Part shown: one piece after another, positions 4,207 through 34,358 of the stretch
Layout of the letters: each line of letters opens with the position of its first letter
How positions within the stretch are numbered: the stretch's first letter is position 1
Source: Gammaproteobacteria bacterium
GTDB lineage: Bacteria > Pseudomonadota > Gammaproteobacteria > Ga0077536
DNA length: 64,000 nucleotides
Reading direction: 5' to 3'
NCBI GenBank assembly: GCA_016209015.1
Contig: JACQWY010000027.1
Location: 1 to 64,000, forward strand
Program-made: the position numbers and the translations under genes
The notes under the pieces: model-generated
The model's input: the letters and a program-made list of their open reading frames with translations, nothing else
What the model was told of the DNA's origin: nothing
The model's database searches: none

Positions 4207-6216
4207 ATGGCTGATGGCAATCGCCGCGAGCCGGCAGAGCGCGCGCAGATCTTCGACGAGGCGCCGTATCTGACGTCCGCTTATGCACCGTTCCGCAAGT
4301 CCTGTTTCGTGCGGGACGACGAGCACTGGCCGCGTATCGAGGCGCTGAAGGACACGATCGACGGCGTCACGCTCGACGTCCTCGAATGGGCGCTCGAGGC
4401 CGCGATCGACGAGGGCGAGGCCGCGGTCGAGCGCACGGCGGTCTCGACGATCGTCCGCGAGCAGCACGACTACCGCGCCTCGTTGAACACGATCGACTGC
4501 AACTCGGTCACGCGCGTGTCCTGGGCGGCGACGGCCGATCCGATCCGCAACTACTACGCGCTCGATGAAATCGAGGAGGGCGACGTCTTCCTCTACAACG
4601 ACATCCACGAATCGAGCGGCACGATCGGCCACCTGCCGGACTTCTGCGTCGTCGTGCCGATCTTCTCCGACGGCCGGCTGATCGCCTTCGCGCAATTGTT
4701 CGGCCACTGCAACGACGTCGGCGGCAAGATGTCCGGGAGCTGGTCGCTGACCGCGACGACGGTATTCGAGGAAGGCATCCAGGTGCCGCCGGTCAAGCTC
4801 TACGCGCGCGGCGTGCGCAATGCGGACGTCTGGAAGATCATCCTGCGCAACAGCCGCTATCCGGACGATCTCCGCGGCGACGTCGATGCCTTCGTCGGCG
4901 CGACGCGCATCATCCAGCGCCGCGTCGAGGAGCTCTGCCGGCGCTACGGCACGGACGTCGTCGAGGCCGGCTTCTACCGCATCATGGATCGCTGCGCGGA
5001 GATCGTGCGCGAGGACGCGCTGCCGCATTTCCCGGACGGCGAGTACGTCGGCGAGGACTTCCTGGAGACCGACGGCATCGATCTCGATCGGCCCGTGAAG
5101 CTGATGCTCACGATCCGCAAGGATCCGGAGAAGATCATCGTCGATTTCGCGGGCACGGATCCGCAGGTGCCGGGCCCGGTGAACTGGGTGATGGACGGCC
5201 GGCATTATTCGAAGTGGCTCGGCGGATTCGTGAAGGCGCAGGTGCCGGGCATGATCGTGAACGAGGGCATGACGCGCGTGTTCAAGGCCTATCTGCCGCC
5301 GCGCACGGTGCTGTCCGCGGAATATCCCGCAGCGGGTGCGGATCGCATGGACTGCATGCTGCGCATGCTCGGCGCCTATATGGCCGCGATGGCGAAGGCG
5401 ACGGGCGGGCAGATGGTCGGCGATTCGCAGTGCATCCAGCTCTACGGCTTCTTCGGCAAGGACCTCGACGGCAAGGACTTCCTCTACCGCGAGATCTTCG
5501 GCGCAGGCTCCGGGGCGCGGCCGTTCGCGGACGGCACGGACACGGTCGATCTCGTGCCGCATTCGAAGAACCTGCCGAGCGAATTCATCGAGCAGCGCTT
5601 CCCCGTCATCGTGCACCGCGTCGGCATGTTCCCGGACTCCGGCGGACCGGGCGCGTTCCGCGGCGGCCTCGGTTATCTGAAGGACGTCGAGATCCTCGTC
5701 GACGGTCATTTCCTCACCGTCTCCTATCGCACGATCTTCTCCTGCTTCGGCGTGAACGGCGGCATGGCGGGCCGCTCGGGCGGGGCGATCGTCAATCCCG
5801 GGACGCCGCAGGCGCAGCAGATCTTCTTCAAGCGCGAAGCCGTGCCGGTCAGAGCCGGCGACATCGTGCGCATCCTCACGCCGGGCGGCGGCGGCTGGGG
5901 CGACCCGCTCGCACGCGTGCCGGAGCGGGTGCGGCTCGACGTGCAGCGCGGCCTCGTCTCGCTCGCGAGCGCGCGCGAGGACTACGGCGTCGAGATCGTC
6001 GCGGTCGAGGATCCGGGCCGGCGCTACGAAGTCGACCTGCCCGCCACGCAGGCCCTGCGCGCGGCACGCAAGGCGACGCGGCCGGCGCTCAAGATGATCA
6101 ACCGCGGACCGCATGCCGAGAAGCTCATCCGCGAAGGGAAGATCACCGTCAGCGATTTCGACTATCCGGCGAACTTCGACGAGGCGGCGTATCTCGCGAC
6201 GGCGGGTGCGGCATGA
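4207..6216 (+). CDS. hyuB: Hydantoinase/oxoprolinase B-type subunit (HyuB)
   Basis: This 669-residue protein is the B subunit partner of HyuA and matches the HyuB family across its length. Recognisable blocks are the early NDIHESSGTIGHLPDF segment at about 130-150, HCNDVGGKMSG at about 170, VDFAGTDPQVPGPVN at about 315-330, and the glycine-rich TPGGGGWGDPL motif near residue 560. It is somewhat longer than the usual B subunit, with extra sequence at both ends. The stop overlaps the amidase start (ATGA), indicating one hyuA-hyuB-amidase transcript. With HyuA it probably forms the ATP-dependent hydrolase or carboxylase; the substrate is unknown. Confidence 0.87.
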   Translation: MADGNRREPAERAQIFDEAPYLTSAYAPFRKSCFVRDDEHWPRIEALKDTIDGVTLDVLEWALEAAIDEGEAAVERTAVSTIVREQHDYRASLNTIDCNSVTRVSWAATADPIRNYYALDEIEEGDVFLYNDIHESSGTIGHLPDFCVVVPIFSDGRLIAFAQLFGHCNDVGGKMSGSWSLTATTVFEEGIQVPPVKLYARGVRNADVWKIILRNSRYPDDLRGDVDAFVGATRIIQRRVEELCRRYGTDVVEAGFYRIMDRCAEIVREDALPHFPDGEYVGEDFLETDGIDLDRPVKLMLTIRKDPEKIIVDFAGTDPQVPGPVNWVMDGRHYSKWLGGFVKAQVPGMIVNEGMTRVFKAYLPPRTVLSAEYPAAGADRMDCMLRMLGAYMAAMAKATGGQMVGDSQCIQLYGFFGKDLDGKDFLYREIFGAGSGARPFADGTDTVDLVPHSKNLPSEFIEQRFPVIVHRVGMFPDSGGPGAFRGGLGYLKDVEILVDGHFLTVSYRTIFSCFGVNGGMAGRSGGAIVNPGTPQAQQIFFKREAVPVRAGDIVRILTPGGGGWGDPLARVPERVRLDVQRGLVSLASAREDYGVEIVAVEDPGRRYEVDLPATQALRAARKATRPALKMINRGPHAEKLIREGKITVSDFDYPANFDEAAYLATAGAA

Positions 6217-21438: not shown

Positions 21439-21572
21439 GGCGTTCTCCTTCTGCAGTAGGTTCGGGACGGCTCTGTCCGATGGATGCGTGATGAAGTCCG
21501 GGTCGTGACCGGCCGGGCTCGGGGCTCAGACGGCGGATTACTCGTGGGGTTCCCGGGAGGGGCTGCGGAAAC

Positions 21573-21594
21573 GGCGCTGTGGTACCGGGGCCGG
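21573..21594. repeat. Left attachment site (copy of tRNA-Leu 3' end)
   Basis: GGCGCTGTGGTACC followed by GGGGCCGG repeats the right-hand sequence at 34267-34289, which has one extra C after GGTACC. The repeat covers the CCA end and T-stem side of tRNA-Leu(UAA). It is the expected scar of integration into the 3' end of the tRNA gene. The single-base difference suggests drift since insertion. Confidence 0.7.
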
Positions 21595-21995: not shown

Positions 21996-22946
21996 TTACT
22001 CTGCCGTCAATGTTCTAAGTATTGTTTCCATAACGGGCGGGCAAACCCCGTTTCCGAGCAAATGTACGCGTTCTCGTCTCGTGCCGCAGGGCAAAACAAA
22101 ACTCTCGTCTAATCCCATAGCGCGCATCAGTTCGGGCACCTGCAGCATCCGCATGGTCCAGCTCCTTCCCGAATGCTCCACAAGTGCAAAACGATCCACG
22201 GTGGTAATCGTACGCAGTGGTCGGTCGAGCGTCTGCCAACCTCCAGATCCGTCCGTTCCGTAGTAGACGAGGAGAAAGCTGGATTTGGCTCCTAAGGTTT
22301 CCATCGCGCGACGCGCCCGTTTCAGCGTTTCGGCTGCACGATTCGGCTTGAAGAGTAAGGACGTAGGCCACGAACCTGGCGAATCGAGAATGGATTTGAC
22401 AGTTGGCTTTCGCCTGCAGGGCCGATGATGCACCTGCCGTGGGGGTCGCCTGAGATCACCGACAACGAATAGTCGTCGGCGCGATTGTGGTACTCCGAAG
22501 TCGGATGCTTCGAGAACTTGTTCAGCTAGGTGATACCCGAGCTCTCGCAGTTTACCAATTAAAGTTTGATATCCGGGCCAGGGGCGCATGTGGACCACAT
22601 TCTCTAGAACAAGCCAACGCGGCCTAAATGCCTCGGCGTAAGCTACGACGTGCAGAGCTGTTGCACGACTTGCCTCACTCCGTGGAGCGGATCCCTTCGC
22701 ACACGTATGGCTCGTGCATTCCGGTGAAGCCAGCAAGAGATCAATTTCGCCGATCCGCCTTCGTAACGTCCTAACGGGGATACGTTCCAAACGTTCAGTG
22801 ACAACGTGCGCTTGTGGGAAATTGAACCGGAATGTTTCCGTCGCGATTGGCCACATGTCGACGGCGCCAGCGATTTCAAATCCAGCAGCGCGCGCGCCGG
22901 CGCTACTACCACCTGCGCCGCAAAATAGGTCTAGAGCTCTATGCAT
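21996..22946 (-). CDS. DNA cytosine-5 methyltransferase (DrmMII-like)
   Basis: This 316-residue C5-cytosine methyltransferase has motif I DLFCGAGGSSAG (6-17), motif VI ENVVHM, motif VIII FGVPQSRRRLF, motif IX RPLRTITTVD and motif X GNGVCPPV. The catalytic loop reads LASPECTSHT instead of the usual PCQ; the cysteine is kept. It is last in the DISARM-like cluster. In DISARM the DrmMII enzyme marks self DNA by 5-methylcytosine. The adjacent Vsr gene supports 5mC methylation. The recognition site cannot be read from sequence. Confidence 0.88.
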   Translation of the reverse strand: MHRALDLFCGAGGSSAGARAAGFEIAGAVDMWPIATETFRFNFPQAHVVTERLERIPVRTLRRRIGEIDLLLASPECTSHTCAKGSAPRSEASRATALHVVAYAEAFRPRWLVLENVVHMRPWPGYQTLIGKLRELGYHLAEQVLEASDFGVPQSRRRLFVVGDLRRPPRQVHHRPCRRKPTVKSILDSPGSWPTSLLFKPNRAAETLKRARRAMETLGAKSSFLLVYYGTDGSGGWQTLDRPLRTITTVDRFALVEHSGRSWTMRMLQVPELMRAMGLDESFVLPCGTRRERVHLLGNGVCPPVMETILRTLTAE

Positions 22947-23043
22947 GAATGATTTGGAATCTATTTGAGTTTTCGCGGAACGTGAATTTGGAACGAATTC
23001 CGCTCGGAACTCGTGCCGACAACTTCTCAGACCATAAAGGATC

Positions 23044-23451
23044 TCAATGGAAAAATGCGTCCATTAGACGCCCTTCTATTTTCTCAGCATCTCCAGTTTC
23101 ACACTCCCAGATGATCATCGTACGCCAACCTAGGGCTTCTAATGCGGCTACCGCGCGTGCGTCTCTCGATATGTTCTGTTGAAATTTCGACGTCCAAAAC
23201 TCCGTTCGCGTTTTTGGCGTCGCTGCATTTGCGCAATCCTTATGACGATGCCAAAAGCAGCCGTGCACAAAAATAACGGTGCGGTGGCGCGGCAAAACCA
23301 TGTCCGGACAGCCGGGCAGATTGCGCACATGAATTCGATACCGCAAGCCCATCCGATGGGCTATACGCCTGACAATTAGTTCTGGCTGCGTGTTTCGGTG
23401 ACCTATGGCAGCCATCATTTTGCTTCGCCGCCCCGAGTCTACGATGTCCAT
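23044..23451 (-). CDS. vsr: Very short patch repair endonuclease (Vsr)
   Basis: This 135-residue Vsr endonuclease nicks beside T:G mismatches that arise when 5-methylcytosine deaminates. It has the family N-terminus MDIVDSGRRSKMMAAIG, then RNTQPE, the catalytic Asp in LPGCPDMVLPRHR (about 45-57), and the VHGCFWHRHKDC block with zinc-ligand cysteines and histidines. It sits between drmB and the methyltransferase, as Vsr genes usually sit beside their cognate C5 methylase. Presence here implies that the methylase is active enough to need mutation control. Confidence 0.93.
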   Translation of the reverse strand: MDIVDSGRRSKMMAAIGHRNTQPELIVRRIAHRMGLRYRIHVRNLPGCPDMVLPRHRTVIFVHGCFWHRHKDCANAATPKTRTEFWTSKFQQNISRDARAVAALEALGWRTMIIWECETGDAEKIEGRLMDAFFH

Positions 23452-23584
23452 TTACCCATTCGGCGTCGAGTTAGTTTTCGGTTCATCTTTCCTTCTAAAC
23501 GCGCAACTCCTTTTAGTGTCCATCTGAGACGAAAATCGCGCATTTATTGGCGGTTCGAAGTCAGCTGCGAGTTTGTTTGCCCTC

Positions 23585-25540
23585 TCATTCCTTCAGGTAG
23601 ACCTCGTCGAGGAGATCGGCCATCCAACCGGGCCGTGAATTCTCGGCCGTGCCGACAATCATCGCCCGATCGAGGCCCTGGTTTACAGTCTCGCATGAAG
23701 TCTCAGGAAGGAGTATGCAAGCATGGCAAGCGGCCAGATTGGCAAGGCGAGAACCCTGTCCACCGAGATTTTCGGAACATACTGGATCGGCGGAACACCA
23801 CGAGGCGCGGGTCAGCGCACTTCGCACGACGGACCCGAGCCGTTCCGGTCCTCCGAGGCGCACTAATCCCCCGAGCGTCCCTTCGGAGTCACCGGCCGCG
23901 GTGTAAATTAGGATGCCGGCCATGGGCGCACTTTTATCTGCAGATACGTAGAGGCGCTCTCTCAGTGACGCAGTACTATATCCACACGCGAAGACAAGCT
24001 GATTGATTAGTATGTGCGCGAGGCTGTGAATGAGCAGGTAACGCGAAGCCCACGCCCGGTCCGCCGCGGCAAGTGGAGGCAATGTTTGAAATACCCCCTG
24101 AAGCCGAAGTAGAAACTGATCACTCAAGCGTTCTTGCAACCAGTCTCGGTTGTCTTCCTGCCACTGCTCGATTCGCTCCTCCCTTAGTTCGAAAAAGAGG
24201 CCTTCTCCGAAAACTTCGACCGCAGGAAGCCAGCGTTCTTGCACTTGGTTTGGAGGGGTGCGGAAAAGCTGAGACATGGCGGAATCGGGCATGCCCGCCA
24301 GAGGCGCTGGGTTCGGCTCGAGCCGGTCGAAACCGTAAAAGACGCGGGTTTCGCGTAAGCGTTCAACGAGATTGACTTTATTAAACCAAGCGACGAGATC
24401 CGGGGGGGGGCGCGATGGAATTACCCGCAAATTCGGAATTTTCTCAGGGTCGTTCACTTCGTTACGCAAAACGTTAAATTCCGCGCGCCGGAACTTGAGT
24501 AAATCGGATTCGGCGGTAGCCGGTTGCGGGCCGCTTGCTACGAGGCTGGCGGTTGGTGCAAGAAGGCTCTCTAGTGCTCTGGTAACTTCCTTCAGTGGGC
24601 GGACTATCCCACGCTCCTGGAGGGATGCCTGCACAAGCGCAACTGCGCCGGCTCGGTTATTCATGTTCCAGACCGTTCGTGCAACTCCGCACGTGCCAGG
24701 GTCCCCCTCTATCTCGTTGCGAATCTGGGTAACAAGATCATCTCGCTCCTGCAGATCCGGCAGAAGGATTGCCGATATCGTCCTGGGGAAGTAGATATTC
24801 GTCTGGTTGATAAGTGCGCCGACAAGAGGGCGATTACAGACTTCGCCGGCTCCGTCACCCAACCATGGTCGATCCCCGGGACAATTTATTCCGGCATTTT
24901 GAAAGGCGCTGCGTTCACCAGCCGCTTCGTCTGGTTTGATTGTTGTATTGGCAAGCGTCCGTCCCGTGCGACCCGGCGATCCTTTGGGGCAGGTGCGGCA
25001 CTGAATGCGGATGCTGCTAAGTTCGGATCCGCCTTTATCGATAAGATTGAGCCCACTATCGTCTAGGCATGTACACCCGATCCATTCTTTCCACGGGAAC
25101 TCGCATAAATGGCCAGCGGGACAAACGGCGATAAATCTCACGGGTATCCATCGCCCGCCCCCGGGGGCAGGATCGATCCTCTGCGTGCTCAGATTGAAGC
25201 GACGCATCTCGCCGGATCGCGTGTTACGGTACCAACGCGGAAATCTAAGCGCCGGAGTGTAGAGTTGAGCGTTCGGGGGCGGCGTCTGCCCGAAGCGTAC
25301 CGAGCGGAAATCGGGAGGAGAGCATAATCGGTCGACACGTAGAAGGGCAGCGAGACGGGGCTCAAACCGTTCGAATTCGCGAGGGTCCTGGCATGGCCGA
25401 AGCCCTTGTGACGGATCCGATCGTTTAAACCAGTGATCCAGTCCGCAGACTACATGAGGAGTCCCGCGTCGGTCTGTGTAAATGCTTCCGGGGCCGAAGG
25501 GCGCTATGATTTGCCCGAGTCTGATCTGCTTGTGCGCCAT
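23585..25540 (-). CDS. drmB: DrmB-like DUF1998 protein
   Basis: This 651-residue protein matches the DUF1998 partner of DISARM helicases. The N-terminus has QIRLGQIIAPFGPGSIY. A first cysteine cluster (CPAGHLCEF, then CTC and CRTC, about 145-190) looks like a zinc site. The C-terminal DUF1998 region includes YLLIHSLAHILINQLVFACG, then LYTAAG-like and CSADPVC / ACHACILLPETSC cysteines near 585-625. It follows the DrmA-like helicase by 12 bases. In DISARM, DrmA and DrmB form a complex that loads on DNA and blocks phage. Low GC and rare codons agree with transfer. Confidence 0.82.
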   Translation of the reverse strand: MAHKQIRLGQIIAPFGPGSIYTDRRGTPHVVCGLDHWFKRSDPSQGLRPCQDPREFERFEPRLAALLRVDRLCSPPDFRSVRFGQTPPPNAQLYTPALRFPRWYRNTRSGEMRRFNLSTQRIDPAPGGGRWIPVRFIAVCPAGHLCEFPWKEWIGCTCLDDSGLNLIDKGGSELSSIRIQCRTCPKGSPGRTGRTLANTTIKPDEAAGERSAFQNAGINCPGDRPWLGDGAGEVCNRPLVGALINQTNIYFPRTISAILLPDLQERDDLVTQIRNEIEGDPGTCGVARTVWNMNNRAGAVALVQASLQERGIVRPLKEVTRALESLLAPTASLVASGPQPATAESDLLKFRRAEFNVLRNEVNDPEKIPNLRVIPSRPPPDLVAWFNKVNLVERLRETRVFYGFDRLEPNPAPLAGMPDSAMSQLFRTPPNQVQERWLPAVEVFGEGLFFELREERIEQWQEDNRDWLQERLSDQFLLRLQGVFQTLPPLAAADRAWASRYLLIHSLAHILINQLVFACGYSTASLRERLYVSADKSAPMAGILIYTAAGDSEGTLGGLVRLGGPERLGSVVRSALTRASWCSADPVCSENLGGQGSRLANLAACHACILLPETSCETVNQGLDRAMIVGTAENSRPGWMADLLDEVYLKE

Positions 25541-25552
25541 TGGTTTTTCCGT

Positions 25553-28500
25553 CTAATTTTGCTGGTTTGGTGCGGGAACGACGTAGCCTTGCGTTATATT
25601 CAGCTCAGCACTGCCGTCGACTTGGCGCATGCTGCTCGGAACGATTACACCGCGTTGCCGTTGAACTTGTGTTGCAAACTGGCCTGGCCATAGCATCAGA
25701 TATTCCCCATCCGGCGAGGGGGGAAAATCTTCCCACTGAAGCGGGTTTTGCGCCCATTTCCGCTCCAGTTCTTGTCGTATGCGGTCTAATTCAAGTAAGG
25801 AGCGTGCTTGATCTTCAAGAGCCTGCACGTTGGTGCATCGTTCGCGCAAAAGCTCATAGCAGTCGTCGACGTGGGGCGCGTAAGCCGTAAAAGTTTGCAC
25901 GGGAGCATTACAGTGCTGCCGGGCCCAAGCGATAAGTGCGCCTGGCATCGCGCGCTGAATTGCGGCTAGGGCGAAGGGTGTCGCAGATGTCGGTTCGACA
26001 CGTTCGTACAAGCGTCGATGATAACTATGGAACTGCTCAAAGTGTGAGCGATCGCGGCTCTTCGAGGGATTGTAGATCGTCAGAATTAAACCTGGTCGCT
26101 CCCACCAGCGGCGGCCGACGCGTCCCGTGACCTGAATGTATTGAGCCGTGGTTTTTGGCTGACCGACAACGCCCATCAGCGAGAGCCGATCAATATCGAC
26201 GCCGACTTCGATAATGCTTGAAGCAAGGCATACGTCTATCGTCTTGTTCTCGGCGTCTGAATACACGGCGGAAAGGTGATCCATCATCGCCACGATCTCA
26301 GGTTGAGAAAGGCGGCTGGTCAGCTCTTCGACAATATGCAGGTTTCGCCGGTTCTCCGATGTAAAGTTCTCGCGATTGAATAAGAATTTCAGCCTTGACC
26401 GTATATCCGAATCGAAGAGGGTCTTGGCGCCGCCGAGCTCCCGGATGCTGTTGTAGAAGACCAGCAGGGACCACCAAGGGTCCCGACGCGTGGACCCAAA
26501 AGCGTGAGGGCGAAAAAGCGCCGAAGAGAAGGCCCTAACCTGGGTGGTCAATACCGACCCGTAATCACTGGCGTGTATGCCAACATAAATGCGGCCTGGC
26601 GATAGTCTGCCGTCTTCTTCTCGAGAGTACGTGCCAAAAAATGAATCACCCATTAAAAGGCCTGGACTCGGGAATAGCTGCAACCGCGGTCTGGCATAAA
26701 GCGCGCGAATTTGTTCTTCTGCGCCTCGGATTGTCGCTGTAGAGGCTATCAATTTGGGCTTTATCCAAACATCGCCAATTCGCTGAGAACAGAGGCGTTC
26801 GAACATGCCTTCGTAAAGCCCATACATTGTTCCGAGCGGGCCCGAGATTAGATGAAGCTCATCCTGCACAATCATTCCCGGAGGAACGGACACGTCGCGA
26901 ACAACTTGCGCTTCAGCGCGGCGGCCGAACAAAGCACCGGCTTCCGGTCTGAATGCAATCATTGCAAATTTGTCAGCGGTGGCGATCACAAGTGAGGTGG
27001 GATTGTTGTATATCCGCTCGTCGATCACCTCGATTGGGAGCCAGTCGGCCCATTGCTCTGAACCGAATGCGCATGCGGCGTCGGGGCAATGCAAAAGTGG
27101 GCCTTCAGTCGGGTGATCGGAAATTCCTCGCACGCGCTGCAATTTCCACTGACCTTGAGAAAGCCCCGGGGGCTTGTGGCCGTCAAACCGGCCAATTTCA
27201 GAGCGACACCATGGGCATTCGGTCAGGATCAGTGGATTGCCCTTACCGCGCTCCGCACGATAGTCATTTAGTTCCGATCGCGCCTGGGACACGCGGTTCG
27301 GTGAGGCGCTGCCACCGATCCAGAGACCGAGCGAAAAGCGACGTCCAGGGACCGAAGCTATGCCGTGGAGCGCAGGGTTGCGGCGTAAAAACTCCATCGC
27401 GCAGATTAGGCTGGCCGCACGCTGAAACTGTTGAGTGGTAAGCATGCGAAGCGTGTATCGCATTAGTACGTTCGTACCGTCGCGAGCGAGGCCATCAGAA
27501 CCTTCCGTCATGAGTAGGCGCTGATGAAACATGTAGAGGGCCATGACGGCGAGGTAGGCTTCAGTCTTGCCGCCGCCAGTCGGAAACCAGATCAAGTCGA
27601 CGATCTCCCGGTCTGACGAATCTTCCCGGCTTGTGCCATCGATGGACATCAGCAGAAATGCTAATTGAAACGCCCGCCACGCGCCCAGACGACCCTTTTC
27701 TTCTCGGTTCTGATGGTAGACGGCCCACGGGGCCTCGTGATTTCCTTCGGGAATGACAAGTCTCGACGCTTGATTCCATTGCAATGGCCGTCGAGCCGTT
27801 TGCTTTGTAGCTATCTGCTGCAGGAGCATGGCCAGGTTCGCAAGTCGAAAAGCGTTCCTTACGCGAGAGTCCGTTCTCAATATTTCGATCCCCGTCGAAA
27901 TCCGCTTGTGGCAGCTTGCGGCAGCGGCAATGTGACGCTGCGAGACGGGCCGAAGGTGCAGCGGCATCTCGGCAATCTCAGCCGCTCTTGCTTGGATCCA
28001 ATTCGAATACTCTACAGCCAAGTTGTTCAGCATCTGCCAAGCGCCAGTACGTCCGTCTTCAGGAAGGCAGGCGAGCTCTCGCATTGAGAGCTGGATAGGG
28101 CGGCCTTGCGAGTCCTTGATGTCGGGCGTCATGCTTGGAACTTGGACAGTAGGCATAACGTCGGCATAAAGCACGGTAGGCGCGCAATTCGGACTCGCGT
28201 CCCAACCAGCGGCACATCCGTGCCCAATTGCCCATGTGGCAGACTCGCGATAGAGAAGAGCTAACGACTGTTCCTCTTCTTCGAGTTGATCAAATGGGGC
28301 TTGACTCTCGGGGTACCGCTGTAGCTGGCCGGCTTCAGCCTGAATTTCGAAATATGTCTGATAAAGAGTCGCTTCGCGGGGGTTGGTGTTAGGAGTAGCT
28401 TGGCTCGTATTACGCAGTACTAACGTCAGTAGCCATACGCCGTCGTGACCTCGGACCCTACGTGGCCGTACATCGAGACGAAGCGAGAGCGGCGAGCCTT

Positions 28501-29224
28501 CCGGCATCACTACCGGGTAATGTAGGACTTGGCCTGAAACCAAATCATGTCCCTTAATTGCGATAGATGTATTAGGACCCACAGCAGGAACTCGCCGCCA
28601 AACGGGAGCCTCCAGCGCCGTGCCCGTTTCGTCTAACCAGCGCCTCGCGCATAGTTCGTAACGACCGTTGACAGGAAATTCCGGATCTGACTGCTCCTGC
28701 CAGAAAAAGCGCCGGCTCTGTGGCAGGCAAACGATGATGCGTTCATCCCGCACCAAGCGAACACAAAAGGACATTCCGATCGTGGATGGATGGCGAATGT
28801 CGGGGCTGGTGACGTCAAGGTCATCTGAGACATCCGCATCGTCATTCTCCATACGCCCCAGATCTCGCTCATCGGCCGCGGCTTCTTGTTCCTCATCGCC
28901 GTCTCGTTCTACTCCCAGCGTATCACCAGCGTCTGCCGCAACTTGGGCTTCCTCCGCGAACGCTACGGGAGGAAGGCCTAGTTGCGGATTGGGATGCAAG
29001 ATGCCGGCTCCGTACTTCCGGTGCGGGGTTTCGCGCTGGTAGTAAAGTACCTCTTGGGCAGGTTCCTCATCATTTTGCCGCCAAGCCAGGGGGCCGCTTC
29101 GCATTGCTATCGGGTCATTGAACGTTTTTGCGTGAAACGTTACCGTTGCAACATCGGTTATGGGGCGTGATGGACCTACTATCTCGCCACGAAGCCAATC
29201 GATGAGTTGAGACCGCTCGCGCAT
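25553..29224 (-). CDS. drmA: DrmA-like DISARM helicase
   Basis: This 1223-residue protein has a superfamily 2 helicase core in its C-terminal half. Walker A is WFPTGGGKTEAYLA at about 545-558, the DEAH-like box is IVQDELHLISGP at about 783-794, STATIRGAEEQ is motif III, and the second RecA domain has ASSIIEVGVDID and IQVTGRVGRR at about 1030-1040. The N-terminal half is family-specific and holds an acidic stretch at about 105-140. Length, motif set and the downstream DUF1998 gene match DrmA rather than Druantia DruE, which is longer. It should be the motor of the defence complex. Confidence 0.82.
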   Translation of the reverse strand: MRERSQLIDWLRGEIVGPSRPITDVATVTFHAKTFNDPIAMRSGPLAWRQNDEEPAQEVLYYQRETPHRKYGAGILHPNPQLGLPPVAFAEEAQVAADAGDTLGVERDGDEEQEAAADERDLGRMENDDADVSDDLDVTSPDIRHPSTIGMSFCVRLVRDERIIVCLPQSRRFFWQEQSDPEFPVNGRYELCARRWLDETGTALEAPVWRRVPAVGPNTSIAIKGHDLVSGQVLHYPVVMPEGSPLSLRLDVRPRRVRGHDGVWLLTLVLRNTSQATPNTNPREATLYQTYFEIQAEAGQLQRYPESQAPFDQLEEEEQSLALLYRESATWAIGHGCAAGWDASPNCAPTVLYADVMPTVQVPSMTPDIKDSQGRPIQLSMRELACLPEDGRTGAWQMLNNLAVEYSNWIQARAAEIAEMPLHLRPVSQRHIAAAASCHKRISTGIEILRTDSRVRNAFRLANLAMLLQQIATKQTARRPLQWNQASRLVIPEGNHEAPWAVYHQNREEKGRLGAWRAFQLAFLLMSIDGTSREDSSDREIVDLIWFPTGGGKTEAYLAVMALYMFHQRLLMTEGSDGLARDGTNVLMRYTLRMLTTQQFQRAASLICAMEFLRRNPALHGIASVPGRRFSLGLWIGGSASPNRVSQARSELNDYRAERGKGNPLILTECPWCRSEIGRFDGHKPPGLSQGQWKLQRVRGISDHPTEGPLLHCPDAACAFGSEQWADWLPIEVIDERIYNNPTSLVIATADKFAMIAFRPEAGALFGRRAEAQVVRDVSVPPGMIVQDELHLISGPLGTMYGLYEGMFERLCSQRIGDVWIKPKLIASTATIRGAEEQIRALYARPRLQLFPSPGLLMGDSFFGTYSREEDGRLSPGRIYVGIHASDYGSVLTTQVRAFSSALFRPHAFGSTRRDPWWSLLVFYNSIRELGGAKTLFDSDIRSRLKFLFNRENFTSENRRNLHIVEELTSRLSQPEIVAMMDHLSAVYSDAENKTIDVCLASSIIEVGVDIDRLSLMGVVGQPKTTAQYIQVTGRVGRRWWERPGLILTIYNPSKSRDRSHFEQFHSYHRRLYERVEPTSATPFALAAIQRAMPGALIAWARQHCNAPVQTFTAYAPHVDDCYELLRERCTNVQALEDQARSLLELDRIRQELERKWAQNPLQWEDFPPSPDGEYLMLWPGQFATQVQRQRGVIVPSSMRQVDGSAELNITQGYVVPAPNQQN

Positions 29225-29233
29225 ATGAAGCTC

Positions 29234-30952
29234 CTATTGTGTCAGCCATGTCGCAAGCGTCTGCTGTGACCGCTGATCACAACATACGCGGACAGATTCA
29301 CTTGCCCGGGTCATTCCCGTGTAGAACAGGTGACGATGAAAGTGGGGCTCGCCCAGAACGATGTCGGTGAGGATGATCACCTTGTTTTCGAGGCCCTTGA
29401 AAGCTTGCACCGACGTGTAGAGAACGGAATTCTTTGCATGTTGCCAAGCCGGTCGTAGCTTTAGACCTTTAGCGGCAAGATTCGCAGCAGCGGAGTGCTC
29501 AGGGGAACAGAAAGAAAGAATCGTAATTTCTTCGGGCCTGTAACCTTGAGAGCGGAATTCCTTAATCCATTGTGCAACTTGCGATTCCTGTTCGCGGCCG
29601 TCAGCATAAAAAAAGATGTCGTAATTCTGTAATCCACCGCCGGTCCGCATGTACCCGGAATAAACGCTTTTTCCAAATCCGCTTAGGCGGATCGCCGATT
29701 CGCCAACAATTTTGTAATTCCGACAGTTCTCCGAAAGTTGATACGTTGCAGGTCTGCCTGCGTCGAGGATGCTCGCGAGTACGGTATTCATAACTGCTCG
29801 CTCACCCAGAACTTGATTCTCAAAGTCGCCGAGAAGGCAGTACGAGCCGCTGGACATCCCTCCGTTGAGGAACTGCATTAAACAGCCCCACAAATTCGGC
29901 CTTGCAATCAGATCCTGCGCTTCGTCAACAACGAGAAAATCAAATTGCGCGGCTATGCGAAGCTCTGGGTCAGTAAGGCGCTCCTCGAGCTGTTCAGGCA
30001 ATACCTGATCCCAGTACTGTGTTGATGGTGCACCCGGAATTGCCAAGCCCGTCATCTCTGCCATTACTCTAATTGCCCGGCCAACTACGAGGTTGGGAGG
30101 CGCCAGCACATCCTTCTGGATGCTCTCACGAATCGAATCCGCGACCAGTTGATTGAAGAAAATCAGTCCTGTACGGCGGCCGCGTTCTGCTGCGCGACGA
30201 GCAATCTCAACGGCGATTAGAGTTTTGCCAGTGCCGGCCGCACCTTCAATCAGGACCCGGGCGTTCGACATCGAAAGTTGCAGAATGGGTTTCTGTTGAA
30301 TGCGCAATATCCGCTCGATGTCATGTTCGCGTCGTTCGATCTGCTCTCGCGCATGAGGTCGGTTCCTTTGCACTGGTAGGCAAAGATTGATTATGGATTC
30401 AATTTGATCTCGATCGAGCGGTCGCATGAGGGGCTTCAGCGTGTCTTCCGCATCGATGCAACTGCGCATGCGGCGTCTCAAATCGGCGCAGAAGGACTCT
30501 CCGTCGACAAAGGTGCGAAACGCTCGGGCGTCCATGAATTCACGAGGCGGCACCGAGAGATTGGGTGATAAATCGAAGTATGAATGGGTAAAGATGCAGC
30601 AGTGGACTACAGGTATTTTATGAAAATGTGGCGCGATTTCGCGAAGGTGCCGGAAAAGCGCATGCCTGCCATCGGCCGCCTGCTTGAATGGAGAGCGTTT
30701 TATCGTTCGGGGAATCCATTGATCATCTTCGAAGGAAATGAACTCATGAGATTTGATTTCAAGGCAAAGCACTCCGGAATCCGGCACAAGAACTACGAAA
30801 TCGATTTCGGTACGCAATCCGCGGTTCCACGGGGTCAAATCGAGCGAATGCAGAGCGGTCCAGCCGTCCGGCCCGGAAGCAAGCATGGCGAACACGTCAC
30901 GCTCGCCTGGCGGGGCGCGTTCGTCAATAAACGAAGGTATCAGACGCGCCAT
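29234..30952 (-). CDS. NERD nuclease-UvrD-type helicase fusion
   Basis: This 572-residue protein joins an N-terminal NERD nuclease-like domain (about 15-130; Glu49, Asp51 and E65-x-K67 in CLEIKSH form the PD-(D/E)xK-like site) to a superfamily 1 ATPase. Walker A is EGAAGTGKTLIA (236-247), Walker B is FLVVDEAQD (339-347), and the C-terminus has SVQAFKGLENKVIILTD and FYTGMTRASESV as in UvrD/REP proteins. It overlaps the previous gene by 13 bases and precedes drmA by 9 bases. I do not know this architecture as a DISARM member. It may supply the nuclease function absent with DrmC. Confidence 0.83.
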   Translation of the reverse strand: MARLIPSFIDERAPPGERDVFAMLASGPDGWTALHSLDLTPWNRGLRTEIDFVVLVPDSGVLCLEIKSHEFISFEDDQWIPRTIKRSPFKQAADGRHALFRHLREIAPHFHKIPVVHCCIFTHSYFDLSPNLSVPPREFMDARAFRTFVDGESFCADLRRRMRSCIDAEDTLKPLMRPLDRDQIESIINLCLPVQRNRPHAREQIERREHDIERILRIQQKPILQLSMSNARVLIEGAAGTGKTLIAVEIARRAAERGRRTGLIFFNQLVADSIRESIQKDVLAPPNLVVGRAIRVMAEMTGLAIPGAPSTQYWDQVLPEQLEERLTDPELRIAAQFDFLVVDEAQDLIARPNLWGCLMQFLNGGMSSGSYCLLGDFENQVLGERAVMNTVLASILDAGRPATYQLSENCRNYKIVGESAIRLSGFGKSVYSGYMRTGGGLQNYDIFFYADGREQESQVAQWIKEFRSQGYRPEEITILSFCSPEHSAAANLAAKGLKLRPAWQHAKNSVLYTSVQAFKGLENKVIILTDIVLGEPHFHRHLFYTGMTRASESVRVCCDQRSQQTLATWLTQ

Positions 30953-32544
30953 TGCTCTACTGTGGTTAAGTCGTAGATGGTTCGAAGCATCGTGTCAGGG
31001 ACGAAGAAGCCTTCTTCAATAGCGCGAATCTTGAAAAAGCGAACAGCTCCCTGCAGTCCACGCGCGGTAGGCATTGAGACTTCAAAAATGGAACACTCGG
31101 AAGCGCGGCGACTAATTTCGGGCAAGAGGTCGGTCAATATTGCGAAGAGCTGTTCGTCTACGATCTCATGCTCCTGCATGCCCGTTTGGATAGCTTCTCC
31201 GCGCGCATGTCCGATCTCGGACCAAGCAAGTTGCCACCATGGTCGGCGGCGGGGGGCGGTGCTTGTTGTGACATCGTGGTCGATGCCCAGTGCCTTCACC
31301 AGGATCTCAAAGTGGAGCCTTTGCTGAGGAGCGTGGATTACTGTGGTTGGCGGTCGGCACCACTGCGTAAGGCACGAATGAAGGTTGCGGAGGTCAATGC
31401 CTGCAGTCCGCAGTCGTCGCGCGAAGTCTATGGCATCTCGCCGCATCTCTTCTCGGAGCCGACCCTTCCAGATAGGACTGTAACGTCCCTCGCCGGCGTG
31501 CAGCGTTCCCAAGTCGGTTGTGCCAAGCAGAGGCCAGATCAGGTACATGCCTTCGAATAGGGCTTCGCTTATTTGGCGGTGGCCGATGGGTGCCTCGGAA
31601 TTTGGCGTGGGATCAAAAGTTGGAACTTGCGCGTTTCGTGGATATAGCACGCCGTCGCTATCGTCGAGTTCAAGAAGCGTAGCGTGCCTAGCGTGAGTGG
31701 GCTTTTCTAGGGTTCGGAATAGCTTTAGATCATCAATATCGTCGGTGATCGTGTCAGAACTCTTTGTGTCGCCCACCTTTATCAGAATTCGATTCCACTG
31801 GATCCCGGCGGATTTTGCACCGCGATTTGAGCTTCCAGAGGCTGATACGTGAGCTCCGATTGCTGCTACGGGGTCATACCCGAAGTCATCGTCATCGCCG
31901 CACCCCGACCAAACAAATTGGATTATTCGCGCGGAGCGTGGGGCACTAAGGACCGAGTCCGGGGTTGAACTCCATCCTCTGGACCGGAACGGACCGACCT
32001 TGACCAGAACCGCAAAGGGTTCCGCATCGCGATAATCGGTAACTGAATGGAGAAATACGTTGTCAGTCGTTGGCTCGTGTTCAAGGATCGATTCGAAGTA
32101 ATGCCGTGATCGGCGGTGGCAATATATTTTCCATGTGACCCCCGTCGCGCGAAGGCGCAAGACGGCATTTCGAACTTCTGCGATCAAAGGGTTCTCGATG
32201 GTATGCAGAATGCTCGCGGCATTTCGGGCTTGGTCATAGACTACGCGGACCTCGTGCCCCCATCGGGCCTCGACGGCGTCGGACTCGCCGAGAGCGCACA
32301 CTGAATTCAAGAAAATTTCGTCGAATGGTACGGGGTCCGTCAGCAATGCCGAAAGCTTGGCGCGAAGACTTTCGGCGATTTCCTGAGCATCATCGCCGTC
32401 ACCTTGATCGTGAACTTTGAGGACGATGCTTCGAATGCATTTTCGAAGTGTACTAAATGGCCCTGAGTAGATTTCGCGCCTCTCAATGGAAGGTGTTATA
32501 TGCTGCTCGAGGAATGAGAACACTTGAGAAGCGGTTACGGTCAT
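30940..32544 (-). CDS. Unrecognised 534-residue protein of the DISARM-like cluster
   Basis: I do not recognise this protein. It begins MTVTASQVFSFLEQHITPS, has no signal peptide or membrane segment, and no P-loop. A basic motif WKIYCHRRSRHYFESIL occurs at about 134-150, a GCGDDDDFGYDP acidic patch at about 213-224, and a Trp/Arg-rich RRRPWWQLAW near 440. It begins 2 bases after the upstream gene's stop and overlaps the NERD-helicase gene by 13 bases, so it is an integral operon member. It occupies the position of drmE in class 2 DISARM and could be part of a split DrmE equivalent; that is only inference. Confidence 0.75.
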   Translation of the reverse strand: MTVTASQVFSFLEQHITPSIERREIYSGPFSTLRKCIRSIVLKVHDQGDGDDAQEIAESLRAKLSALLTDPVPFDEIFLNSVCALGESDAVEARWGHEVRVVYDQARNAASILHTIENPLIAEVRNAVLRLRATGVTWKIYCHRRSRHYFESILEHEPTTDNVFLHSVTDYRDAEPFAVLVKVGPFRSRGWSSTPDSVLSAPRSARIIQFVWSGCGDDDDFGYDPVAAIGAHVSASGSSNRGAKSAGIQWNRILIKVGDTKSSDTITDDIDDLKLFRTLEKPTHARHATLLELDDSDGVLYPRNAQVPTFDPTPNSEAPIGHRQISEALFEGMYLIWPLLGTTDLGTLHAGEGRYSPIWKGRLREEMRRDAIDFARRLRTAGIDLRNLHSCLTQWCRPPTTVIHAPQQRLHFEILVKALGIDHDVTTSTAPRRRPWWQLAWSEIGHARGEAIQTGMQEHEIVDEQLFAILTDLLPEISRRASECSIFEVSMPTARGLQGAVRFFKIRAIEEGFFVPDTMLRTIYDLTTVEQWRV

Positions 32545-32546
32545 GC

Positions 32547-33521
32547 CTATCTCCTATTAATGACCGCAACAGTTATCCCCGTCGGAATCGGCTGCAGGCA
32601 GTCCAGCGCCGGTTGGTCCGCTGCGTACCATTGCGCGAGGCCGGCGAGCTTCGTTCCTATTGATTCAAGGCTATCTCGATCGATGTTGCGATGTATCACG
32701 CCTACAACGTCGGTATCTTTGAATCGTGGAAATTCGAGTGCCTGTAGAAACGCGGCGTGACCATCTGCGACTAAGAGACTGGTAAATCCCGTGTCTCTAT
32801 CTAATTGACGAATTCGGGAGTTGTAGAACGCGATGCGGGACACGGTGGCCGGCGACCAAGCGTGAACGGTCAGAAGTTCGGACAAGTCAACAACGCACTC
32901 GTTACGCCGGAATCGCACATTGGCGAATTTCTCTCGAGAGGTGGATTGACCGCTTACGTGTCCTGCGAGACAGATCGCAGAGTCCGAACGCGTGAGATTA
33001 ATTAAGAGCGGTGAGTTCGCGTCGGCCGCTATTTCCTCGTAAATTTCGCGATGCCGAAGTTCTGTGCCACGCACCGTTTCAATGGGGGGCTCGTGCTCTA
33101 GTCGCCATTCACCAGCTTTGTTTTCGAGCACCGCAATTCGAACAGGGCCGGCCTTTGTGTCATCTTTACCTCGGCTCGGCTTCTCCTGGCGGACCCAAAC
33201 AATGCCATTTTCGTCCCGCCCTTCCAACAAGAAGCGCCCCCTATTTTTTTTGTGGCGCAAATAGATACCGCAGTCGCGCTTTGAGGCAAGTCGCTGGATT
33301 CGTTCAAAATGAGTTAGGGCGTCGTTCGCGTCTGCTAGCGTTAGCCGGAATCGAAGCGCACCAAGCGCGAGCAGTCCTGCGCCAGCTGATTCACAAGGCA
33401 TAGAAATGATGCCGATTCGGCGCTTCGCGCTGCCTTGGGCGAAAGCGGAACCACAACGAATCAGAAATCTTACCCACGAAGGAATAGGTTCCCAAGGTAA
33501 GCGAGCCTCAGAGAACTGCAT
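32547..33521 (-). CDS. Unrecognised 324-residue first gene of the DISARM-like cluster
   Basis: I do not recognise this protein. From ATG 33521 (preceded by AAGGGCAGG) it has 324 residues, starting MQFSEARLPWEPIPSWV. An in-frame ATG at 33551 would add ten. It has a hydrophobic SAGAGLLALGALRFRL segment at about 45-60 followed by HFERIQRLAS, and a C-terminal SLLVADGHAAFLQAL with DTDVVGVIHRNIDRDSLESIG, which resembles a Rossmann-like strand/helix pattern. No catalytic motif is clear. As the first operon gene it may be the sensor or DrmE-like part of the defence system. Confidence 0.7.
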   Translation of the reverse strand: MQFSEARLPWEPIPSWVRFLIRCGSAFAQGSAKRRIGIISMPCESAGAGLLALGALRFRLTLADANDALTHFERIQRLASKRDCGIYLRHKKNRGRFLLEGRDENGIVWVRQEKPSRGKDDTKAGPVRIAVLENKAGEWRLEHEPPIETVRGTELRHREIYEEIAADANSPLLINLTRSDSAICLAGHVSGQSTSREKFANVRFRRNECVVDLSELLTVHAWSPATVSRIAFYNSRIRQLDRDTGFTSLLVADGHAAFLQALEFPRFKDTDVVGVIHRNIDRDSLESIGTKLAGLAQWYAADQPALDCLQPIPTGITVAVINRR

Positions 33522-33783
33522 TGTCAGCCTGCCCTTGCTTTGGCGAGCCATCCGCCCGACGCCACCCCCCGGATCTCGCGTCAGGCCATCATGTCTTCTG
33601 TCCGCCCGGCACCAGCCCTCCTAGACTGCGACGTTCGGTTCCACGGATGTTATGGGATCAGTTTGGTTGGCGACAGATCGGAATATTCCTAGTTGCTAAC
33701 GGTTAGTCTTCACACCGAACTCACCGAGGCGATTTGCATCTGGGTGGGAGAGCGGGGCGGTTTGCAATCGCCTTCATTGCGGT

Positions 33784-34110
33784 TCAATCCTTCCAAAAGT
33801 GCCTGAAGCGAGCCGTGGCGAGTTCCGTATAGCGGGACGTATTATGGATATTCCTGTGGCCAATGTAATGCTGGATGGCCCGGGTATCCTGACCGTCGTT
33901 CGCCAACTTGAAGCCACATGCGTGGCGGAGCATGTGCGGATGGACTGGGAAATCGAATTCGGCGAGTTGCCCGGCGCGGGTGACGAGCTTTCTGACACAA
34001 CCGCGACTGCCGGCAGGCGTGACGAGCAGGAAGAGGCCACCCCCATCGAAGAGCTTCAACGTCTTGTCCTTGGCTTTGGCACTGCGTATTTCAGCGTCGG
34101 TGAGTAGCAT
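33784..34110 (-). pseudogene. Fused remnant of two tyrosine recombinases (integrase)
   Basis: The 108-codon frame joins the first ~35 residues of a P4-type integrase (MLLTDAEIRSAKAKDKTLK, then LFDGGGLFLLVTPAGSR) to the last ~60 of a different, FimB-like recombinase (HPHMLRHACGFKLANDG, HYIGHRN, SRYTELATARF). The whole core-binding domain and the first catalytic Arg and Lys are missing. Only HxxR, the second His and the Tyr nucleophile remain. The frame is open, so the deletion is in frame, but the product cannot recombine alone. It sits where the island integrase should be, beside the tRNA. Confidence 0.82.
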
Positions 34111-34150
34111 GTTGGATGTACTCCCCAAATAGGCCCGACTAGCGGGCAAG

Positions 34151-34240: not shown

Positions 34241-34267
34241 GCGAAGGCTGGCGAAGGTCGGCGAAAG
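34241..34267. repeat. Three 10-bp phased repeats GCGAAGG next to attR
   Basis: GCGAAGG starts at 34241 and 34251, and GCGAAAG at 34261, each exactly 10 bases apart. They abut the attachment core at 34267. One-turn helical spacing is what cooperative binding of an excisionase or other architectural protein would need. Confidence 0.6.
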
Positions 34268-34289
34268 GCGCTGTGGTACCCGGGGCCGG
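34267..34289. repeat. Right attachment site in tRNA-Leu
   Basis: GGCGCTGTGGTACC, C, GGGGCCGG overlaps the 3' end of tRNA-Leu(UAA), including the encoded CCA (read as TGG at 34274-34276). It matches 21573-21594 apart from one base. Confidence 0.7.
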
Positions 34290-34358
34290 ACTCGAACCGG
34301 CACGCCTTGCGGCTCTGGATTTTAAGTCCAGTATGTCTACCTGTTCCATCACCCGGGC
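34274..34358 (-). tRNA. tRNA-Leu(UAA)
   Basis: On the minus strand an 85-base class II tRNA folds fully. The acceptor stem GCCCGGG pairs with CCCGGGT, followed by ACCA with CCA encoded. The D-arm contains GGAACAGGTAGAC. The anticodon stem-loop has CTGGA, loop CTTAAAA, TCCAG, giving anticodon UAA. A long variable arm contains GAGCCGCAAGGCGT, and the T-arm is GCCGG-TTCGAGT-CCGGC. The sequence is close to the enterobacterial leucine UAA tRNA. Its 3' end served as the integration site for the island to the left, and the gene remains intact. Confidence 0.95.

Follow-up and report, generated by a model that had tools for sequence, protein, structure and literature searches.

A DISARM-type operon with a probable two-gene DrmE and a NERD-helicase in a gammaproteobacterial genome

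Introduction

Class 2 DISARM operons have the gene order drmE-drmA-drmB-drmC-drmMII. The PADLOC rule for this class, as given in an excerpt of PMC9252829, lists DrmA, DrmB, DrmC, DrmE, and DrmMII. As for the mechanism, excerpts of a study on another DISARM (PMC9142583) report that DrmAB favors 5′-overhang DNA, that a trigger loop of DrmA (residues 176-232) otherwise blocks it, that cytosine methylation lowers the DrmAB ATPase rate, and that DrmC seems to be non-essential. A DISARM variant with ShdA/RmuC is described in an excerpt of PMC10270631. ARMADA, BRIGADE, and TALON are reported in PMC12458937; TALON is the only NERD system in the excerpts of that paper, and the paper as a whole has neither the word DrmE nor the word DrmMII.

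The operon considered here lies in a window of 64,000 nucleotides, the whole stretch of DNA that was analyzed, from a gammaproteobacterial contig (JACQWY010000027.1). With class 2 DISARM it shares DrmA, DrmB, DrmMII, and, most likely as two genes, DrmE, and its DrmA belongs to the DrmE clade; it differs in having no DrmC, a NERD-helicase directly upstream of drmA, a probable split of DrmE, and an added Vsr. Set against the PADLOC rule, DrmA, DrmB, and DrmMII are present, and DrmC is not; as for DrmE, no library model matched, profiles of split DrmEs gave 93% for each half with controls under 0.5%, and the comparison with one-piece DrmE was negative.

Other systems resemble the operon in part. 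Class 1 DISARM was rejected, there being no DrmD or DrmMI match among the seven genes and a DrmA outside the class 1 group. ARMADA has a YprA-family helicase, a Vsr nuclease, and a methylase too; however, according to the excerpts of PMC12458937, its genes include a BrxHII-like helicase, a PglX-like methylase, and a helicase-fused Vsr, none of which occurs among the seven genes, where Vsr has a gene of its own and the methylase is of the C5 type, and it was rejected as well. TALON, in the same excerpts, likewise unites a YprA-family helicase and a NERD nuclease in one operon; it was rejected because its helicase is ARMADA-like and accompanied by TPR-CSD and TBP genes, whereas the helicase here is a DISARM DrmA and the seven genes hold no TPR, CSD, or TBP. 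Lastly, the RTasNERD-Hel protein of DRT systems, known from a PADLOC model, has the same domain pair as the NERD-helicase, but the copy in the window sits inside a DISARM operon with no reverse transcriptase among the seven genes.

The reading favored here, with a probability of about 60%, takes the operon to be a complete anti-phage system of the DISARM kind that belongs to the DrmE (class 2) lineage; DrmE would be made as two proteins, and a NERD-helicase would stand where DrmC is missing. It is based on the gene identities, the profile links of the first two genes, the gene orders of two relatives (L038 and L037 in the numbering of the loci collected), the DrmA clade, the absence of loci with both NERD-helicase and DrmC from the sample, and the conserved catalytic residues of the NERD domain. 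No description of this gene set was found in the literature searched, the founding DISARM paper (PMC5739279) and its supplements being outside its coverage; hence the operon may be a variant of DISARM that is apparently undescribed in that literature, and the supplements of the founding paper could list such loci. To this extent the suggestion of an undescribed subtype, made in the first-pass annotation of the sequence, is partly supported; a separate class is improbable, since the first two genes are most likely DrmE.

The operon and its genomic setting

Seven open reading frames without internal stops follow each other on the minus strand from 21996 to 33521 (or 33551), intact, co-directional, and at the place where they had been annotated. 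In the order of transcription they are drmE-N and drmE-C (both probable assignments), the NERD-helicase gene, drmA, drmB, vsr, and drmMII. Gaps of 2, -13, 9, and 12 nt make the first five near-contiguous; Vsr follows after 133 nt, and the methylase after 97 nt. The longest frame of the first gene starts at 33551; its homologues start near the second Met, 33521, which is probably the true start. That further genomes have the same five-gene core shows this to be no chance cluster.

Upstream of the operon, a truncated tyrosine integrase (33784..34149, minus strand; 121 aa), in which an Arm-DNA-bind_3 start is joined to a Phage_integrase end and the middle of the family is missing, adjoins a tRNA-Leu(TAA) gene (34274..34358, minus strand). 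The 3′ end of this tRNA gene recurs at 21570 as a direct repeat of 21 nt (90% over 21 nt); extended by reading, the att-like copies span 34264..34288 at the tRNA and, with one indel, 21570..21593 at the far end. The GC content, taken in 2-kb steps, is 0.54-0.57 between 22001 and 34000 and 0.62-0.73 elsewhere in the window. Taken together, the tRNA, the repeats, the integrase remnant, and the low GC lead to the operon being read as the cargo of an island, about 12.7 kb long, that is targeted to a tRNA gene.

DrmA and DrmB

The SF2 helicase DrmA (25553..29224, minus strand; 1223 aa) is matched by PADLOC at 1.7e-191 and obtains 806 bits with NCBIfam NF038325, under the cut-off of 950. DrmB (23585..25540, minus strand; 651 aa), a DUF1998/MZB protein, obtains 379 bits with NF038324, for which the cut-off is 240. 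The solved proteins 7s9v_A (DrmA) and 7s9v_B (DrmB) match at 3e-128 and 6.8e-62, respectively. These results, with those for the methylase given below, confirm the drmA/drmB/drmMII core that had been recognized from the sequence. An acidic stretch in the window DrmA (residues 100-142) has D or E at 18 of its 43 positions; at its end the alignment with the 7s9v DrmA sets in, at residue 215 of the latter and thus at the end of the trigger loop, so that a similar loop is likely to exist here.

In a tree of DrmA from 41 loci, nine loci including the window form one 100/100 clade: six have DrmE and a NERD-helicase, two have DrmE only, and one (L018) ends upstream at a contig end. Both the class 1-like loci and two other architectures with NERD or SF1 helicases fall outside this clade. 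Of the seven NERD-helicases from the DrmE lineage, five form a starred group in a tree of 14 such proteins, and the positions of L037 (on a long branch) and L038 are weakly supported; L074 branches first in both trees.

The loci were drawn from several samples. In one genome set, seven of the nine other genomes with DrmA were taken (G159 and G206, with the weakest matches, were left out), and in two further sets all of them; as for plasmids, 9 of 85 records were taken, some by rank and four for an adjoining NERD-helicase match, which biases the sample, and one further genome was added. Counts over 43 loci leave out L072 (no DrmA called), L024 (a duplicate), and L025, and the 41-row tree further leaves out L039 and L089, with DrmA cut or split. 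Genes were called by a crude longest-ORF choice; the DrmE-C gene of L074 was restored, and the gene lists lack a Vsr-like ORF in L017, a methylase in L026, and a second helicase in L020, all missed by this procedure.

NERD-helicase present, DrmC absent

The third gene (29234..30952, minus strand; 572 aa) encodes a NERD nuclease domain of the PD-(D/E)xK type (PF08378, 1.3e-12) fused to an SF1 helicase (UvrD_C_2), and is matched by the PADLOC model RTasNERD-Hel at 2.2e-22 over residues 1-551. Residues E49, D51, E65, and K67 of the nuclease are kept in 13 of the 13 sequences that reach them, and the Walker A lysine in all 14 NERD-helicases.

No DrmC model matched any of the seven genes; across the whole genome, DrmC_I gave four matches, all on other contigs and under the cut-off (best 49.5 bits, versus 133). 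The lack of a phospholipase-D-type DrmC, already reported in the first-pass annotation, is therefore upheld. Among 43 DrmA loci, a NERD-helicase occurs in 14, DrmC in 11, and both in none (Fisher p 0.008, with kinship ignored), and a relaxed DrmC search added no NERD locus. Built from four proteins of the class 1 type, the DrmC profile could miss other PLD families; with it, DrmC was found in 0 of 9 DrmE loci, in a sample that has no textbook class 2 locus for comparison. Since L027, L028, and L039 have DrmE and no NERD-helicase beside DrmA, DrmE does not need the NERD-helicase.

The departure from class 2 DISARM is the NERD-helicase just upstream of drmA together with the absence of a phospholipase-D DrmC, and this is the part of the gene set that truly deserves the name non-standard. 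A nuclease of another kind, joined to a DNA motor, seems to have taken the place of the usual one, and the NERD-helicase is proposed to be the degradative effector. If so, a point mutant would make it possible to test which component of DISARM degrades the DNA. There is about an even chance that the effector slot of DISARM is exchangeable, with a DrmC form and a NERD-helicase form, that the latter is spread over at least three architectures (one with DrmE, one with a protein of ~500 aa and a second SF1 helicase, one with a UvrD-like helicase), and that in the DrmE lineage it replaced DrmC.

Does the NERD-helicase have to be the effector? It might instead be an accessory, such as a repair or loading helicase, with defence exerted by DrmAB translocation alone or with Vsr as the nuclease; we consider this possible but doubtful. 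The apparent dispensability of DrmC in the DISARM of PMC9142583 suggests that a nuclease may not be needed, and excerpts of PMC12458937 describe active Vsr domains, fused to ARMADA YprA helicases, that are proposed to act in this way. However, an accessory role fits less well with nuclease residues conserved in 13/13 NERD-helicases and with DrmC in 0/14 NERD loci. As for Vsr, the window protein keeps the stretches of the mismatch-specific enzymes and is encoded apart from the helicase; some relatives have Vsr detached or not at all.

A probable DrmE in two genes

The first two genes, U334 (32547..33551, likely start 33521, minus strand; 334 aa) and U534 (30940..32544, minus strand; 534 aa), most likely encode DrmE in two halves, N-terminal and C-terminal, although neither matched anything in three profile libraries, DrmE models included. 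What connects them with DrmE is a set of related loci and of intermediate sequences.

Among the relatives, L038 has DrmE (the end of a 1792-aa protein), NERD-helicase, DrmA, DrmB, Vsr, and methylase, that is, the same order as the window with DrmE in one piece; the collection of such loci had been proposed in the first-pass annotation. The order in L037 is methylase, one-piece DrmE, NERD-helicase, DrmA, DrmB, and the DrmEs of both loci are over the NCBIfam cut-off. In L017 (genome G364 of the same class; SCUJ01000007.1, MAG FW602_bin.35) a methylase, U334, U534, NERD-helicase, DrmA, DrmB, and a Vsr-like ORF are found, the five core proteins being 35 to 67% identical to those of the window. Plasmid pROB02 of Rhodococcus opacus B4 (L026) encodes proteins of 304 and 507 aa, NERD-helicase, DrmA, and DrmB, followed beyond DrmB by Vsr, NaeI, and HNH on the opposite strand, plus a cytosine methylase. 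Finally, L074 (G1073, from a phylum sample around L025) has a methylase, proteins of 328 and 537 aa, NERD-helicase, DrmA, and DrmB. The series DrmE (split or one-piece), NERD-helicase, DrmA, DrmB, with a cytosine methylase nearby, is thus common to the window and to L026, L017/L024, L074, L037, and L038.

In profile comparison, U534 with its L017 homologue versus four split C-halves gave 93.3% (E 2.8e-7, 416 columns); controls gave 0.12% for the reversed C set and 0.06-0.27% for the NERD-helicase, DrmB, and ~500-aa sets. The U334 profile versus four split N-halves gave 92.6% (E 4.6e-7, 78 columns; reversed 0.43%), and the U334-family HMM matches the N-half gene of both Nostoc split pairs (1e-8, 8e-7). 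Direct comparison with one-piece DrmE alone was negative (U534 0.08%; U334, with N-termini, 0.18%, and 0.02-0.2% across all hhalign comparisons), and with L074 alone it gave 0.83% for U534 and 4.8% for U334. Before L074 was included, hhalign of U534 with five sets of DrmE C-halves or whole DrmEs gave 0.04-0.17%, its C-terminal part 20% (E 0.0011), and U334 with the Nostoc N-halves 93%. Adding one-piece DrmEs to the split set (with L074) lowered the values to 81% for U534 and 63% for U334. The joined C set versus one-piece DrmE reached 95.7%, owing mostly to rows other than the window's.

The step from split to one-piece DrmE is carried by other C-halves: L074 alone gave 70%, and R. opacus versus a DrmE set 90.5%. 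The C-halves of L027, L039, and L074 match the NCBIfam DrmE model in its second half at 3.6e-18, 3e-19, and 2.8e-12, all below its cut-off of 80 bits; that of R. opacus, one of the four in the C set, has no match to this model and resembles the C-half of L027 (blastp 9e-19). The N-half is linked to one-piece DrmE by pairing and place only. Most likely, the split DrmE here has diverged beyond the reach of the NCBIfam and PADLOC models and is joined to the family via intermediate split pairs; even the one-piece DrmE of L037 has no PADLOC match. Detection with these models would class systems of this kind as incomplete or "other" DISARM.

An improbable alternative is that the two genes are new components and the operon a separate DISARM class. 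It draws on the missing DrmE model matches and on the direct comparisons without significance; it is countered by the significant links to split pairs with clean controls, by the HMM matches of U334, by the position and similar summed size that the two proteins share with DrmE, by the orders in L038 and L037, and by the DrmA clade. Split DrmE therefore stays the most likely reading, and the claim that three other ORFs occupy the drmE position is probably wrong. As for strong matches of these ORFs to DrmE or DrmC, which the first-pass annotation had named as decisive against a new subtype, none was obtained directly; DrmE was reached only through remote homology, DrmC not at all.

Further searches add detail. 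Neither profile found anything in the PDB, nor did the DrmE of L037; AlphaFold gave mean pLDDT values of 38 for U534 (2 sequences) and 39 for U334 (3 sequences). U534 found no relatives in viral contigs or plasmids and only its own genome among 96 relatives and among 398 phylum genomes; U334 found none in plasmids. A profile search of genome contigs gave L024 (on the same contig as L017) and L025. A 114-aa ORF in L068 matched by the U334 HMM (3e-4) was taken as chance.

Some irregular loci were also seen. L025 (8943-10174; Acidobacteria MAG) has U334 and only the start of U534, followed by ORFs that resemble a transposase by eye, and no DrmA was found in its genome. In L027 (6303-9966; Nostoc plasmid 1) a transposase gene lies between the two drmE genes, and in L028 (7485-9956; Priestia plasmid) three ORFs precede drmA, the last one matching DrmE. 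For the N-half of R. opacus (L026, 5487-6401), the start given in the annotation (5778) looks too late, the frame being open from a Met at 5487 and including a conserved stretch. The 1792-aa protein of L038 (3613-8991) has, by eye, a Walker A-like motif near its start.

Vsr and the methylase

The earlier calls for Vsr, the cytosine-5 methylase, and the NERD-helicase all proved correct. The Vsr mismatch endonuclease (23044..23451, minus strand; 135 aa) is over the TIGR00632 cut-off and is matched by the E. coli-type Vsr 1cw0 at 1.6e-32, with PD and HGCFWH stretches in common. The C5-cytosine methylase (21996..22946, minus strand; 316 aa) is over the TIGR00675 cut-off, and its best PADLOC model is DrmMII PDLC02654 (3.1e-96); the methylase of L038 is 47% identical to it and fits the same model best. 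Among the relatives with DrmE and a NERD-helicase, Vsr is seen in L017, L026, and L038 only, and the methylase varies in family and place: it is first in L017, L037, and L074 and last in the window and L038, while that of Rhodococcus adjoins NaeI and Vsr and fits the DruM2/MTase_II models best.

This variability, the Rhodococcus arrangement, and the gaps of 133 and 97 nt could point to Vsr and the methylase as a passenger restriction-modification remnant outside the DISARM unit, an idea made quite improbable by the model and place that the window and L038 methylases share, by a C5 methylase near DrmE and NERD-helicase in 6/6 loci, and by a type II restriction endonuclease in 0/7 window genes.

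Proposed mode of action

How might a DISARM operon of this composition work? DrmMII would methylate host cytosines as a mark of self. DrmA and DrmB would load onto entering DNA that lacks methylation and has single-stranded 5′ ends, and would then translocate; both loading and methylation sensing are proposed for this operon by analogy, carried over from the published work on another DISARM. DrmE would assist as two chains, which we infer to act as one unit. The NERD-helicase would unwind and cut the captured DNA, and Vsr may repair the T:G mismatches that arise by deamination of DrmMII-made methylcytosines.

Other layouts

Two further layouts with DrmA and DrmB were observed. In the second, these proteins come with an SF1 helicase of ~400-500 aa (L019, L020, L021, L030, L067, L076, L087, and L089); a protein of ~470-550 aa is present in all but L067, weakly in L030, and a NERD-helicase in L019, L020, L021, and L030. 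The ~500-aa proteins tested matched no NCBIfam or PADLOC model. The third layout (L029, L033, and L071) consists of a UvrD-like helicase (787-929 aa), DrmA, DrmB, and a NERD-helicase, and its DrmAs form one 100/100 group. In L034, a Sphingomonas plasmid, a class 1 DISARM lies between cas3 and the remaining genes of a type I-E CRISPR system.
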